A stretch of 34,494 nucleotides of DNA from an uncultured Prochlorococcus sp. (GTDB lineage Bacteria > Cyanobacteriota > Cyanobacteriia > PCC-6307 > Cyanobiaceae). Shown in pieces: positions 17,077 through 28,594 of this stretch. Within the stretch, counting starts at the first letter, position 1. The number at the start of each line of letters is the position of its first letter. The position numbers and the translations under genes are program-made. The stretch covers positions 1-34,494 of the forward strand of contig CACAXS010000009.1 of the NCBI GenBank assembly GCA_902536545.1. Reading direction: 5' to 3'. The notes under the pieces are model-generated. The model was not told where the DNA came from. It ran no database searches and was given only the letters and a program-made list of their open reading frames with translations.

Positions 17077-17712
17077 TTATTTAGGCATTTTATTTTTTGC
17101 TAATCCTGAAAGAGTCGCTAAAGCAAACATTCCTAGTAAAGCAATTCCTAAAAATAATCCTGCTCCTTGGCTTACTCCTGCCCCCACTGCTACAAGTATA
17201 GAGTCACTGATTAGAAGACTTATTAATAATGCTGGAGTAAATATTTTCCAGCGAGTGCCTCCAATACCAATTGCGTAGCTTAGAAAATCAAAAAGGCCAG
17301 TCATTAATAAACCAGTCATAAGAAAAAAATTTTCCTCTAGTTGGTTCTGATTAAAACTTTCAATCTTTTTCATCGCTTTCGGGCCTACTAAATTACGTAC
17401 AGGAACCCGACCATAATTTCTTGCAATAAGGAAAGCAGCTTGGCAAAAAACGATATCAGAAAAGATTATTGTCATGTAACCTTTTTGAAATCCTAGTAAT
17501 GAACCAGCTAGCAAAGAATAAGCTGAACTTGGAAGGGCAGGTAAAATAATACTTACTCCTCTAAGTATAAATATTCCAAAAGGAGCCCAAATTCCCATAC
17601 TTTCTATTTTATTCCTTAGAGGTTCAATCCCATAATTTTGGATTAAATAAATCAATACAACAAATATTGCTATAAAAAAAACTACTGAGAAAAATTTCTG
17701 TATTTTATTCAT
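17077..17712 (-). CDS. TVP38/TMEM64 (DedA-like, SNARE-associated) membrane protein
   Basis: A 211-residue integral membrane protein with about five to six hydrophobic segments. The family core is visible: FGIFILRGVSIILPALPSSAYSLLAGSLLGFQKGYMTIIFSDIVFCQAAFLIARNYGR, including the Pro-rich re-entrant loop and the downstream Arg. A conserved FDFLSYAIGIGGTRWKIFTPALLIS follows. Members are thought to move phospholipids (scramblase or flippase-like) or maintain envelope homeostasis; the role in cyanobacteria is not settled. It is transcribed in the same direction as the unknown gene and cpeS, but 116 bp upstream of them, so cotranscription is uncertain. Confidence 0.85.
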   Translation of the reverse strand: MNKIQKFFSVVFFIAIFVVLIYLIQNYGIEPLRNKIESMGIWAPFGIFILRGVSIILPALPSSAYSLLAGSLLGFQKGYMTIIFSDIVFCQAAFLIARNYGRVPVRNLVGPKAMKKIESFNQNQLEENFFLMTGLLMTGLFDFLSYAIGIGGTRWKIFTPALLISLLISDSILVAVGAGVSQGAGLFLGIALLGMFALATLSGLAKNKMPK

Positions 17713-17861
17713 TATTTTTATAATAAATTTATTCGAAGTAAATTTTTAATTCTAAAATTTGATTCTATCTATAATAGAAATACTAATCAATAAAAATTTT
17801 TACAAATTTTTTAATCTTATATTTCCCTCTAATAAAAGATTTTTGTATTCCATAAGTAGCC

Positions 17862-18281
17862 ATGATTTATTCTAAGAATAAAGTTAATTTAATATTTTTT
17901 AGAAATATCACTTATTTAGTCCTTTCGATTATCCTTTTCTTTTGTATTTCAATAAAAAAATCAGATGCTTTGCCTCATGAATGGGTTGGAATTCCTAAAA
18001 GTGAATATGGAGAGCAATTATGGGATAGGCAAAGTATAAAAAGGAATAAGGATGGTTCTGTGAGAGTATTGAGTAAATTTATTCCCAAAACAAAAAGTGA
18101 AATTACTAAGGATATTTTCTATACAATGGATATAAATTGTTTTGAAAAATCATTTAGAGATGTTGATGTCTCAATAGATGAAGCAAATAGTAATTTCAAT
18201 GATTTAGCTGATTGGCAAGATCCAAATGGCGATGAACTGATTTTGGGTGTTATTGGTCAAGTCTGTAGAGTCGAAAACTAA
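17862..18281 (+). CDS. Secreted protein of unknown function
   Basis: A 139-residue protein with a long basic N-terminus and hydrophobic core (about 11-30), with a likely signal-peptidase site after SDA at 36. The mature part opens HEWVGIPKSEYGEQLWDRQSIKRNKDGSVRVLSKFIPK and contains two Cys (DINCFEK and GQVCRVEN) placed to form a disulphide. The pattern Trp-x, then Asp-x-x-Ser-Ile-x-Arg, then VRV, then Cys resembles small periplasmic surface-adhesin-E-like domains, but this is a weak resemblance from memory. The gene lies just outside the tRNA-Phe insertion, upstream of the left repeat. Confidence 0.7.
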   Translation: MIYSKNKVNLIFFRNITYLVLSIILFFCISIKKSDALPHEWVGIPKSEYGEQLWDRQSIKRNKDGSVRVLSKFIPKTKSEITKDIFYTMDINCFEKSFRDVDVSIDEANSNFNDLADWQDPNGDELILGVIGQVCRVEN

Positions 18282-18340
18282 AAACTTTAATTTATAAAAA
18301 AAATACGAAAAAATTACGATTTCCTAATGTCTTGAAAGTA

Positions 18341-18366
18341 TAAAACCGTGTTATAGAAAGGGTTTA
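18341..18366 (-). terminator. Relic of a tRNA-Phe downstream hairpin at the left repeat
   Basis: The 26 bases left of the duplicated tRNA end share about two thirds of their positions, without gaps, with the sequence in the same place beside the intact tRNA. They can form an imperfect AAACC/GGTTT stem. This looks like a diverged copy of the tRNA-Phe terminator. Confidence 0.45.
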
Positions 18367-18390
18367 AAGGTGCCAGGACCCAGATTTGAA
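18362..18390 (-). repeat. Left direct repeat: displaced 3' end of tRNA-Phe (att-like)
   Basis: 29 bases match 19795-19823 with one mismatch (18366 versus 19799); 24 of them (18367-18390) are identical. Bases 18371-18390 are exactly the last 20 bases of tRNA-Phe from the start of the T-loop to the discriminator base. The similarity stops sharply at the T-loop boundary, so this is not a whole tRNA pseudogene. The pattern is what integration into a tRNA 3' end leaves behind: the old 3' end is pushed to the far side of the insert. Confidence 0.85.
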
Positions 18391-18682
18391 GAGGATCCTA
18401 GTTCCTTGTAACATAAGTTATATCAGGGTGTCTGAGAGATATATGATCGCCTGTACTGCATGAAATGTACTGCAAAAATTATATTATTCATTTCTATGAA
18501 CGGATTTTTGATAATTCAATGCAGTACAAAAAATTGGTAAAATTACCTGATTTGTTTTGGTCTGATGGAAATCAGAGATCTCCATACAAACAAAAGCGAA
18601 ACAAAAATACTTTATTACTAATAAGTGATTGCTAGGGTTATTTTTGAACTAGAGTATATCCAAATAAAAGGGTGTTTACATT
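18391..18682. other. Non-coding left end of the element
   Basis: This 292-base stretch is part of the 401-base gap before the cargo gene and has no plausible gene. It contains three copies of the 9-base repeat (18452-18528) and a 7-base inverted repeat (CTGATTT at 18547-18553, AAATCAG at 18569-18575, 15-base loop). The sequence AAAGGGTG at 18667-18674 is a possible ribosome binding site for the ATG at 18683. Confidence 0.6.
18452..18528. repeat. Left cluster of TGTACTGCA repeats
   Basis: Exact TGTACTGCA occurs at 18452-18460 and 18466-18474 in direct orientation, and its reverse complement TGCAGTACA at 18520-18528. A matching cluster lies at the right end of the element in mirrored order. 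Such short repeats near both ends of an integrative element are typical of arm-type binding sites for a recombinase or its directionality factor; that role is inferred. Confidence 0.7.
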
Positions 18683-19660
18683 ATGAGCAAGTATAATCTT
18701 GGACTCAAATTCAAAGAAAGTATCCTTCGCTTATCAAGCCTGACAAGTAAACAAAAACTTGAACTTTTAGAAAATTTAGCGAACGAAGAAGGTGAAAAAG
18801 ATATAGAAATTTTGAAAGCTATTGTAAGAACTAAAAATATATTGGACTTGTTTTTGAAAGATGAAAAAAGTAAAGAAGAAAAAGTCAATATAAAAAATGA
18901 AATTTTCAGACTTGAAAAATTTTATAGTCAACATCAAACTTTAGAATTATGTGATTTCATGAGTGCTTTTGATTCCTTCTATGGTGAGATCAAGGATGAA
19001 ATATTATTACCTAAGGAAGAAAAAGAAATCCTAGATACAAATAATTCTTCTTTCCAAAATCTAGAAATCAACAGAACATCAAAATCAAAGAATAAAGATT
19101 CCCTTTTAGGAAAATTACAAAGTTTCGGAGGATCCTTTGGAAGCTTTCTGTTCATAGTTGGGATATTTACGCTAAAGGATATTATCAGAGCAAATTTATC
19201 TTTTTGGTTTCGTATCAACAGAATGGAATTAGGTTTTATTCAGGCAAAACTTTTTTCAGCAGGATCTTTTGCTTTAGGAGGCATAATATTAGCCTCTTAC
19301 GGATTTTTTGCTATGGAACTCTTTTCTCGATCATCTACTGAGATAAAAATAATTCCTAAGGAAACTCTAAAGCCATTTCAACAAAGACAGAAAAATAGTA
19401 AACCTTGGCTTGTTGGGATTTTAGTAGGTTTAGTTTCTCCACTAGTCTTTAGTCTTATTTATGCAGTGAGGCATAAAGACTGGAGAATATTTGTTTATCC
19501 AATGTGGATATTCTTTTCCATCTCATTTTTAGTAATCCCAGCGGTGATTGGGATGAATTCTTATAAAATATATTTGCAGATATTCTCAGGCTTTATAGCC
19601 TATGTAATTGTAAGAAACAATAAATCATCAATCAAAATTGAGGATAATTCAAGTATCTAA
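18683..19660 (+). CDS. Cargo gene: unknown protein with soluble helical head and membrane C-terminal half
   Basis: A 325-residue protein. Residues 1-140 are soluble, highly charged and probably helical (Lys/Glu/Leu-rich, no catalytic motif recognised). From about 147 there are about five hydrophobic segments: 150-168, 188-212, 241-262, 270-291 and 296-310. Between the second and third lies a polar loop (213-240) with several Lys/Gln. The segment SKPWLVGILVGLVSPLVFSLIYAVRHKDWRIFVYPMWIFF is a striking membrane hairpin. No known family recognised. As the only gene between the two tRNA-Phe repeats it is the element's cargo; a defence, exclusion or envelope role is possible but not shown. The ATG at 18683 has an upstream AAAGGG at reasonable spacing. 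Confidence 0.82.
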   Translation: MSKYNLGLKFKESILRLSSLTSKQKLELLENLANEEGEKDIEILKAIVRTKNILDLFLKDEKSKEEKVNIKNEIFRLEKFYSQHQTLELCDFMSAFDSFYGEIKDEILLPKEEKEILDTNNSSFQNLEINRTSKSKNKDSLLGKLQSFGGSFGSFLFIVGIFTLKDIIRANLSFWFRINRMELGFIQAKLFSAGSFALGGIILASYGFFAMELFSRSSTEIKIIPKETLKPFQQRQKNSKPWLVGILVGLVSPLVFSLIYAVRHKDWRIFVYPMWIFFSISFLVIPAVIGMNSYKIYLQIFSGFIAYVIVRNNKSSIKIEDNSSI

Positions 19661-19704
19661 GTATTTTTTTATCCAAGAAAATTTTATGGACGTATCACCG
19701 AAAA

Positions 19705-19761
19705 TGCAGGACAGTTCTGGGTATCTACTTATATCAAATTATGAACTGCAACTGTACTGCA
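19705..19761. repeat. Right cluster of TGTACTGCA-type repeats
   Basis: One exact copy lies at 19753-19761 in direct orientation. A one-mismatch direct copy (TGAACTGCA) lies at 19742-19750, and a one-mismatch inverted copy (TGCAGGACA) at 19705-19713. The order reverse-forward-forward mirrors the left cluster's forward-forward-reverse. All lie between the cargo gene stop and the tRNA. Confidence 0.62.
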
Positions 19762-19773
19762 CTCTAAAAAACG

Positions 19774-19798
19774 AAAAACCCTGTCTATGACAGAGTTT
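19774..19798 (-). terminator. Intrinsic terminator downstream of tRNA-Phe
   Basis: AAAC (19776-19779) pairs with GTTT (19795-19798), then one mismatch, then CTGTC (19781-19785) pairs with GACAG (19789-19793) around a three-base loop. Read on the minus strand the hairpin is followed by a run of T. It starts 5 bases beyond the tRNA 3' end and should end tRNA-Phe transcription. Confidence 0.7.
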
Positions 19799-19823
19799 GA
19801 AGGTGCCAGGACCCAGATTTGAA
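19795..19823 (-). repeat. Right direct repeat at the 3' end of intact tRNA-Phe (att-like)
   Basis: This is the partner of 18362-18390: 24 identical bases (19800-19823) and 28 of 29 over the longer span. It covers the tRNA 3' end from the T-loop to the discriminator plus 9 bases downstream. The element is presumed to have brought this copy in, restoring a complete tRNA. Confidence 0.85.
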
Positions 19824-19876
19824 CTGGGGACACGGCGATTTTCAGTCGCCTGCTCTACCAACTGAGCTATCCCGGC
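19804..19876 (-). tRNA. trnF: tRNA-Phe (GAA)
   Basis: 73 bases fold as a full cloverleaf. The acceptor GCCGGGA pairs with TCCTGGC (one G-U). The D-arm is GCTC/GAGC, and the anticodon arm GGCGA/TCGCC holds loop CTGAAAA with anticodon GAA. The T-arm CCCAG/CTGGG has loop TTCAAAT, and the discriminator is A. A complete CCA is not encoded. Its last 20 bases are duplicated 1,433 bp away. Confidence 0.97.
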
Positions 19877-19967
19877 TCTAACATCTATACTCTAAATTAA
19901 GATGCGTAGTTTGTGAAACCCTTTTGATTAAAAATTTTATATCTTCATCAAATATCCAAAAAAACTT

Positions 19968-21197
19968 TTATTTTGAGTTAATCGCAAGCAAGGCAGTACC
20001 AAATGAAGTAGTTTTTCTACAAGAAGCTATTGGTATATTGATAATTTTTTCTCTTATTTTTCTCCACTGAGGGTTTTTTGAACCTCCACCAATAGTAATA
20101 ATTTTTTTTGGAAATGAACCTGTTAGTTCGCCTAGTTTTTCCCAACCTCTCAATTCGATCCTAGCAAGACCCTCGAATAATGCATGTAGATAAAGTGAGT
20201 CACTTACTGGCCTTGGACCAAGTATCGGTTCTAAATTAGAATTATTAACAGGAAATCTCTCTCCTTTACTATTAAGAGGTAAAAGATTTAATGAAGTGTT
20301 TTCTGATGGATTTATTTGTCGACTGAGCTCCTTTATTTCTAAATCAGAGAAAAACTTTGACAGGATACCGCATCCTGCGTTTGATGCTCCTCCACATATC
20401 CAATGGCCGTTTACTCTATGGTTTGTAATTCCTTGTTTTTTTATAGGGTTATCAATAATTTTTTTTACTACAAGAGTTGTTCCTAAAACTGTGAGACCAT
20501 CTTCTTTACCTAAACCTGCAGCTATTACACTTGCATTAGAGTCAGTGGTGCCTGAGATTAATATTAATTTCTTATTCAAGTTAAATCTCTCTGCTAAATC
20601 AAAATTCACTTGTCCAATAATTTTCCCACTTTTTATTATTTGAGGTAGGCATTTTTGCCATGAAGTATTGAGATAACTTTTTGGCCATGATTCTTTTTTT
20701 AGATCCCAACCAAGTTTTAAATTATTGCCTTCTTCTCCATGAGTCCAATCTTTTAAAAACCAACCTGTGATCCAATCAGATTGATGTCGTAAAAGTATAT
20801 TTGTCCCATATTTATCTATCAGTTTTAATGCTTTAGCAAGACTACTGTATGGAGTTCGCAGATGATCTTCTCCAGAAGTTAAGGATTCAAGAAGGATCTT
20901 ATGTTCATTACATGCTTGGTCATAGGGTATTGCTTCTCCTATCGGCTCTCCTTGCAAATCGGATGGGATTAACGTTCCTGATGTGCCTGATATAGCCAAT
21001 TTATTTAGATTAATTTTTACCTCTATAGGTAAACTAGCTAAAAGATTTTCACAAGAATTGATCCAAGAAATTGGATTTTTAAAGCTGTATGAATAAGGCA
21101 CTGAATTTGAATATACTAATTTCTTATCAAGATTAATTATTGATATTCTTGCACCACTGGTTCCAAAATCTAACCCTCCATAAAAATTATCAGGCAT
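19968..21197 (-). CDS. FGGY-family sugar kinase, D-ribulose/xylulose kinase-like
   Basis: A 409-residue carbohydrate kinase of the FGGY family. The N-terminal phosphate loop is GGLDFGTSGARISIINLD. Later motifs are ISGTSGTLIPSD, PYDQACNE, GTTDSNASVIAAGLGKEDGLTVLGTTLVVKK and the C-terminal adenosine-site IITIGGGSKNPQWRKIREKIINIPI. Its length and motif spacing resemble the short cyanobacterial/plant kinases (SePSK, AtXK-1), reported to act on D-ribulose rather than xylulose; the substrate here is not proven. The ATG at 21197 was chosen because it starts right before the conserved fold and avoids a 61-base overlap with metK. It leaves an 11-bp gap, so metK and the kinase are probably cotranscribed. 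Confidence 0.87.
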   Translation of the reverse strand: MPDNFYGGLDFGTSGARISIINLDKKLVYSNSVPYSYSFKNPISWINSCENLLASLPIEVKINLNKLAISGTSGTLIPSDLQGEPIGEAIPYDQACNEHKILLESLTSGEDHLRTPYSSLAKALKLIDKYGTNILLRHQSDWITGWFLKDWTHGEEGNNLKLGWDLKKESWPKSYLNTSWQKCLPQIIKSGKIIGQVNFDLAERFNLNKKLILISGTTDSNASVIAAGLGKEDGLTVLGTTLVVKKIIDNPIKKQGITNHRVNGHWICGGASNAGCGILSKFFSDLEIKELSRQINPSENTSLNLLPLNSKGERFPVNNSNLEPILGPRPVSDSLYLHALFEGLARIELRGWEKLGELTGSFPKKIITIGGGSKNPQWRKIREKIINIPIASCRKTTSFGTALLAINSK

Positions 21198-28522: not shown

Positions 28523-28594
28523 TGCCGGCTAACAGATTTGAACTGATGACCTTCGCTTTACAAAAGCGCTGCTCTACCGCTGAGCTAAGCCGGC
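28523..28594 (-). tRNA. trnT: tRNA-Thr (UGU)
   Basis: 72 bases fold as a cloverleaf. The acceptor GCCGGCT pairs with AGCCGGC, and the D-arm is GCTC/GAGC. The anticodon loop TTTGTAA gives anticodon TGT, on a stem whose outer pair is mismatched. The T-loop is TTCAAAT, and the discriminator is A. CCA is not encoded. No duplicated 3' end was seen nearby, unlike tRNA-Phe. Confidence 0.95.

Follow-up and report, generated by a model that had tools for sequence, protein, structure and literature searches.

Site-specific insertion of a 1,433-bp segment at the 3' end of a tRNA-Phe gene is well supported in the 34,494-nucleotide stretch of uncultured Prochlorococcus sp. DNA analyzed here (contig CACAXS010000009.1; hereafter, the window). 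We consider this segment to be probably a non-autonomous integrative element with exchangeable cargo, moved in trans by a tyrosine recombinase of a divergent family associated with tRNA-Phe and tRNA-Cys. Its descent from, and dependence on, this family are likely, and its present mobility is plausible, and its route between cells we infer. These findings are based on the tRNA-derived repeats bounding the segment, the alleles of the same site across the genus, and the ends that the segment shares with a recombinase-bearing element.

The tRNA-Phe repeat and alleles of the integration site

The intact tRNA-Phe gene (anticodon GAA; predicted by ARAGORN) serving as the integration target occupies positions 19802-19876 of the minus strand. 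Part of its sequence recurs in a 49-nt direct repeat (18342-18390 and 19775-19823; 84% identity, spacing 1433), which is the longest direct repeat listed for the region 17300-21000. Within this repeat lies an exact core of 24 bp, extending from the T-loop to the discriminator (the last 22 nt of tRNA-Phe) plus 2 bp, with a right attachment (att) copy at 19800-19823 and a left copy at 18367-18390, the latter representing the displaced 3' end of the original tRNA. An earlier sequence-only reading of this DNA had placed a 29-bp repeat of the tRNA end 1,433 bp from the gene, which we confirm with 28 of 29 positions matching and the 24-bp core exact. The abrupt end of homology at the T-loop that it described is also evident, the next bases being GAGGAT versus CTGGGG, and on the opposite side of the core similarity runs on into the tRNA-Phe terminator region. 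A query comprising the tRNA and its terminator matched only three places in the window's assembly (genome G000; 1.05 Mb, 67% complete), namely tRNA-Phe, the left copy and, weakly, the neighbouring tRNA-Thr (28533-28594), which rules out the common dispersed tRNA fragment that the same reading had named as a possible refutation. Between the core copies are two non-coding ends and one sizeable open reading frame (ORF), orf325 (18683-19660, plus strand). No recombinase was recognised inside the 1,433-bp element from the ORF listing, Pfam or the family profile introduced below, consistent with its original description as a one-gene unit lacking an integrase.

Matches to tRNA-Phe were obtained in 242 of 266 genomes of the genus, and we read the locus in 150 of these (156 loci, six genomes being represented twice); the 150 are among the matches listed and are biased toward sites with a terminator like that of the window. 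G143 and G353 were left out, their contigs ending within about 400 bp. The site is empty in 117 of the 150 genomes, with the neighbouring gene orf139 ending 51-108 bp from the tRNA end, and the flanks of the window element, joined by script, aligned in one piece to 116 of the 156 loci. An ordinary conserved chromosomal segment is ruled out by these empty sites. Also identified were 19 genomes with the duplicated tRNA end diagnostic of an insert (G000, which is the window's genome, G137, G330, G084, G018, G021, G306, G136, G030, G346, G310, G332, G317, G104, G003, G038, G081, G380 and G345; in G306 tRNA-Phe lies on another contig). Both kinds of allele that the sequence-only reading had proposed to look for, empty sites and other inserts at the same tRNA, are thus present. 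The 14 other genomes comprise those with an insert or longer gap and no second intact core (G061, G022, G058, G073, G095, G145, G149, G326, G301 and G002), one with a misplaced neighbour gene (G333), one with a recombinase and a contig end (G054), and two with contig ends (G365 and G170).

Core-to-core sizes, measured for 18 inserts, range from 142 bp to 7.6 kb. Inserts of 142, 146, 653, 687, 973, 998 and 1,155 bp are all smaller than the window element, which consequently does not represent the extreme small case it had been taken for. No ORF of at least 60 aa is found in the 142- and 146-bp inserts (L126 8885-9027 and L167 8936-9082, respectively), which retain the two tRNA ends but contain no gene; in the case of G003, the left arms (see below) are directly followed by the right end. 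Apparent tandem inserts were also observed in G137, G306 and G081 (L052, L074 and L190), with further core copies or end-like sequence beside the element. On a host tree built from two neighbouring proteins, occupied tips are scattered (18 of 140 tips, the other 122, class 'e', having no duplicated core), requiring 17 Fitch changes versus a shuffled mean of 17.3.

Conserved ends, arm-like sites and differing cargo

The ends of the window element were also identified in inserts of 1,155 bp (G137), 1,673 bp (G330) and 4,355 bp (G084), and the right end only in G073. The conserved left end (18384-18540) is 85%, 78% and 69% identical to those of G137, G330 and G084, respectively, and the conserved right end (19685-19790) is 91% identical to each of G073, G137 and G330, and 87% to G084. 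BLAST similarity between the window element and the G137, G330 and G084 inserts is confined to these two ends, extending inside the cores for about 80-165 bp on the left and 103-167 bp on the right, and among themselves the latter three share one extra inner match, of 28 bp, between G137 and G330. Cargo differs accordingly among the elements with these ends: the window encodes a 325-aa protein with hydrophobic stretches (residues 150-170, 190-214, 240-264 and 267-294 of orf325), G137 has ORFs of 175 and 65 aa, G330 encodes a protein of 329 aa, and G084 encodes three proteins, one of them a GSCFA protein (PF08885). Among elements with other ends, the cargo includes TPR proteins, DUF2130, a superinfection-immunity domain (PF14373), a SHOCT protein, and a DUF4956-CotH-VTC set; two of these elements, G346 and G104, have about 1.3 kb of cargo in common at 86% identity. 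The PF14373 domain belongs to the 1.4-kb insert of G030 (L093 492-1064) and may have an anti-phage function, while the DUF4956-CotH-VTC gene set occupies the 5-kb insert of G345 (L193 639-4716), in which no recombinase was detected. Among all 26 cargo ORFs of at least 100 aa, Pfam searches revealed no recombinase except a resolvase in G021. Conjugation families were also absent from the Pfam matches of the scanned cargo proteins, in a scan not aimed specifically at conjugation genes.

Searches with orf325 itself returned no row in Pfam up to E 1, nothing informative in NCBIfam (two rows at E 0.07 and 0.09), and no or chance-level matches only among PHROGs and phages. It has one close relative only. 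The surrounding cargo block (18602-19665, plus strand) has a 91.5% identical counterpart in G031, within an island next to tRNA-Ser; the host genes of that genome are 80-82% identical to those of the window, a contrast pointing to horizontal transfer of the cargo independently of its ends. The C-terminal part of orf325 also has short relatives (26-37% identity) in G071, G039, G073, G060 and G104 (L006-L010), that of G071 adjoining a tRNA-Ser.

Two terminators can be distinguished at the element ends. The displaced chromosomal terminator of tRNA-Phe (18342-18364, minus strand) has lost its stable hairpin (18330-18365 folds at -1.2 kcal/mol); in relatives with an empty site, L036 for instance, the sequence suggests an intact hairpin. 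The terminator now behind tRNA-Phe is borne by the element (19776-19798, minus strand) and forms a 10-pair stem with a T tail (-11.1 kcal/mol, z -3.5).

Inward of the cores we identified five putative recombinase arm sites through word counts and a test of set positions. The window contains four exact copies of the word TGTACTGCA, each of them within the element and close to one of its ends (shuffle mean 0.17; 0 of 100 shuffles reach four); allowing one mismatch, eight copies are found, a number reached by 11 of 100 shuffles. On the left, exact copies are located at 18452-18460 (plus strand, +79 from the core) and 18466-18474 (plus strand, +93), followed by an inverted copy at 18520-18528 (minus strand). 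On the right, TGAACTGCA, with one mismatch, is located at 19742-19750 (plus strand, -64) and an exact copy at 19753-19761 (plus strand, -53). A possible further site, TGTCCTGCA (19705-19713, minus strand), emerged from the one-mismatch word search. This arrangement, with a direct pair, an inverted site and a second pair near the far end, recalls the arm sites of lambda-type integrases, and by that analogy the 9-mers may be bound by a recombinase.

In each of the four elements sharing the window's ends (window, G137, G330 and G084), the 8-mer at +79 is found again at +93, in inverted orientation at +147 to +151, and at -64 and -53 from the other core. Their arm words match at 31, 31, 32 and 32 of 32 letters (random placements reaching at least 24: 0 of 20,000), scores that are partly due to construction, since the set-position test was designed after viewing these positions in the same four elements. 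Independent support for the arm layout is provided by elements with other arm words: TGTACTCC adopts the same layout in G346 (31 of 32), G310 (32) and G104 (24), and TTCCATAC, with left sites shifted by 6-9 bp, is found in G136 (32) and G317 (31), again with 0 of 20,000 control placements reaching 24.

A divergent recombinase family and the case for movement in trans

The G084 element possesses a divergent tyrosine recombinase that starts at about the inverted arm (left arm site 3). Relatives were identified at 19 named genome loci in Prochlorococcus and Synechococcus, with a tRNA present in 12 of these (4 Phe and 8 Cys), and residues R317, K346, R422-H423 and Y461 are kept in 16 of 16 aligned family proteins. 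A model of the W8 protein (pLDDT 84.2, pTM 0.53) yielded eight PDB matches with E-values of 0.001 or lower, each of them a tyrosine recombinase (XerA, XerH, Tn1549 Int and lambda Int), with Cre falling just below this set; TM-scores by query length were 0.28-0.40, the overall arrangement not being closely matched. Sequence searches with family members were largely uninformative: in Pfam none of four proteins exceeded the cut-off (one gave sub-threshold rows, E 0.036 and 0.14), none was found in NCBIfam (three proteins), and PHROGs rows were at E 0.028 or worse (three proteins). The G084 recombinase pieces had none in Pfam and PHROGs rows at E 0.01-0.03. PDB sequences and viral contigs gave no match to the family, phages none or chance-level ones only, and two DNA patterns had no match among viral contigs. 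Defining absence as no family-profile match at E 0.001 in frames of at least 40 codons, we detected the recombinase in 3 of the 19 duplicated-core inserts (G084, G021 and G306), as well as in G054.

The window element may nonetheless retain a trace of such a gene. By eye, a probable vestige of a recombinase start, KKLVKLPDLFWSDG, spans about 14 codons at 18528-18569 (plus strand) and resembles recombinase N-termini, its relatives being KLKKKLPDKWDT, KLRKKLPNK and KIKKKLPKNW. In the window, G137, G330 and G084 alike, the inverted arm is followed by a short stretch rich in K/R whose last residues are LP(D/N/K), as in a recombinase start, which suggests descent from a recombinase-bearing element. 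Judged from these sequences, the window element appears to have lost a recombinase gene.

Corresponding structures were identified at tRNA-Cys. The tRNA end is duplicated in seven of eight recombinase-bearing loci, with one core copy preceding the recombinase by at most a few hundred bp and another at the tRNA. Among 30 further tRNA-Cys loci (flanks of 1.5 kb or less, the locus of the window's own genome included), one, in G032, possesses an 813-bp insert (L233, C2, about 687-1520 when oriented with the tRNA on the minus strand) whose two ends each bear a TTTCCTACC pair, and which also contains an inverted copy and a small repeat-rich ORF. No frame in this insert is long enough for the recombinase.

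On these grounds we propose that the window element would have originated from a larger element encoding a tyrosine recombinase of the picocyanobacterial tRNA-Phe/tRNA-Cys integrase family, and would then have lost the recombinase gene and gained a one-gene cargo block. It would have kept what is needed in cis, namely the tRNA-derived core at both ends and the five arm-like sites at set spacing, and the spare terminator it carries would leave tRNA-Phe unharmed by insertion. An autonomous relative, already present in the cell or newly arriving in it, would provide the recombinase in trans; on binding the arms the enzyme might excise a circle across the two cores, which could then insert at another tRNA-Phe.

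The sequence-only reading had left open whether the segment is a satellite mobilised in trans or a remnant. Our results favour the satellite without proving it. A dead remnant, in which an autonomous element was inserted, its recombinase deleted, and the remaining 1.4 kb left immobile and decaying, we consider unlikely, even though recombinases are rare, no helper was found in the incomplete assembly, the likely recombinase vestige is as expected of a remnant, and decay is seen at other sites (the G031 remnant and degenerate cores). Contrary to this explanation, the window's two core copies agree in all 24 bp and four of its arm words are exact, although the adjoining displaced terminator no longer folds, and the profile finds a recombinase in just a small minority of the duplicated-core inserts. 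Furthermore, a comparable element of about 1 kb without a detected recombinase is 93% identical between G081 and G380 (1,139-bp match including the tRNA) versus 71-75% for the host flanks, a difference that indicates horizontal transfer. Neither this similarity nor that of the G031 cargo block proves movement in trans. Mobilisation by an unrelated recombinase such as the host's own PF00589 enzyme is very improbable: the window's genome does have a single PF00589 match, on C16 (G000:C16:11392-11823, L216), in a frame of 389 aa, but PF00589 members are present in 14 of 14 control genomes and so are to be expected anyway, and the element's ends match those of the G084 element, which has a different recombinase. 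Duplicated tRNA fragments can also arise by other routes, and a chance duplication of such a fragment around an ordinary chromosomal gene would involve no mobile element whatsoever. We give this explanation next to no credence, as it is refuted by the empty-site and alternative-insert alleles, that is, by the 117 genomes without an insert and the different inserts found there, of which three share the window element's ends, in addition to an arm layout beyond chance.

Movement in trans must itself be weighed against several observations. The only recombinase found with the window's arms, that of G084, is broken: it contains one in-frame TAG, and its reading frame appears to change near the start. 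The intact enzymes at tRNA-Phe, from Prochlorococcus W8 and AG-321-E21, go with different arm words. The family is rare (9 of 266 genus genomes, one being a weak partial match), and no member was found in the 67% of the window's genome that the assembly represents. Nine of the 18 inserts tested for arms fit neither layout at a score of at least 24 (G018, G021, G030, G038, G081, G380, G345, and the 142- and 146-bp inserts); visual inspection shows similar word pairs at other offsets in G018, G021 and G038. When repeated words at element ends were scored irrespective of position, elements and controls could not be told apart. Decay is also evident among the inserts, with two core mismatches in G317, three in G345, a degenerate core in G306 and the remnant in G031. 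Finally, it is possible that homologous recombination around the tRNA also spreads fixed insertions, for example between G081 and G380.

A broader interpretation, which we advance tentatively and regard as less likely than not, is that tRNA-Phe and tRNA-Cys of marine picocyanobacteria are targeted by a large pool of cassettes that lack a recombinase, in which arm sets would act as a specificity code for many divergent, rare recombinases and a few helpers would move many one-gene cassettes in an integron-like manner. The 813-bp tRNA-Cys insert of G032, with its own arm word and no room for a recombinase, fits this interpretation. If true, it would imply integron-like gene exchange between cells built on tRNA ends. 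Our results suggest that many tRNA-Phe insertions travel without an enzyme of their own, and surveys of islands based on integrases would miss many of them. The tRNA-Phe locus also addresses the open question of how single genes are gained and lost in small Prochlorococcus genomes, and the proposed mechanism is made testable with a short synthetic substrate.

Relation to known systems

A 2023 preprint (PMC10187409) describes an integrase family of Prochlorococcus and Synechococcus located upstream of either tRNA-Phe or tRNA-Cys, which it sets apart from tycheposon integrases; how mobilisation or integration proceeds is, according to the preprint, not yet known. It also reports a small serine recombinase near the integrase, frequent but not universal. 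We take the recombinase described here to belong to this family on the basis of its hosts, its tRNA targets, the serine recombinase of G021 and its lambda-Int-like model, equating the two by description rather than by sequences. The G021 element encodes a serine resolvase (PF00239; L075 8525-9055) of the kind the preprint reports. The preprint's main text makes no mention of direct repeats, att or attachment sites, arms or boundaries, so that element boundaries seem not to be described there; the present analysis supplies candidate attachment cores, arm sites and boundaries for this recently proposed family at both tRNA targets. Like elements of this family, the window element resides in Prochlorococcus at the 3' end of the same tRNA target, carries variable cargo, and has the ends and arm layout of the recombinase-bearing G084 element. 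Unlike them, it possesses neither integrase nor serine recombinase, its one ORF being neither, and of a divergent tyrosine integrase only the probable start vestige is found. We found no account of recombinase-less elements at these tRNAs in the Prochlorococcus and picocyanobacterial integrase literature, a survey mostly without subscription papers that makes their novelty provisional.

Kinship with tycheposons, raised in the sequence-only reading, is not supported. Tycheposons (Hackl et al. 2023, Cell) are likewise cargo-bearing insertions at Prochlorococcus tRNA genes, but are described in PMC10872708 as 4-200 kb in size with a tyrosine recombinase, whereas the window element is 1.43 kb with one gene and no recognised recombinase. 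Membership is disfavoured by this difference in size, and by the recombinase behind the same ends, which fits the family that the preprint calls distinct from tycheposon integrases.

Further parallels exist among elements that depend on others. Cis-mobilizable elements (CIMEs) are presented in PMC5704250 as decayed integrative and conjugative (ICE) or integrative and mobilizable (IME) elements that have lost their integration genes and kept attL and attR. The window element would resemble them in having lost its integration genes, as the vestige suggests, in keeping attL and attR, and in tandem accretion at the site; no conjugation gene was recognised in it, and the swapping of cargo between shared ends is more cassette-like. 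Miniature inverted-repeat transposable elements (MITEs) and clusters of attC sites lacking integron-integrases (CALINs) also lack an enzyme of their own and depend on a helper. According to PMC11389934, however, they rely on transposases or integron attC sites, in place of the tRNA cores with arm-like repeats that bound the element described here.

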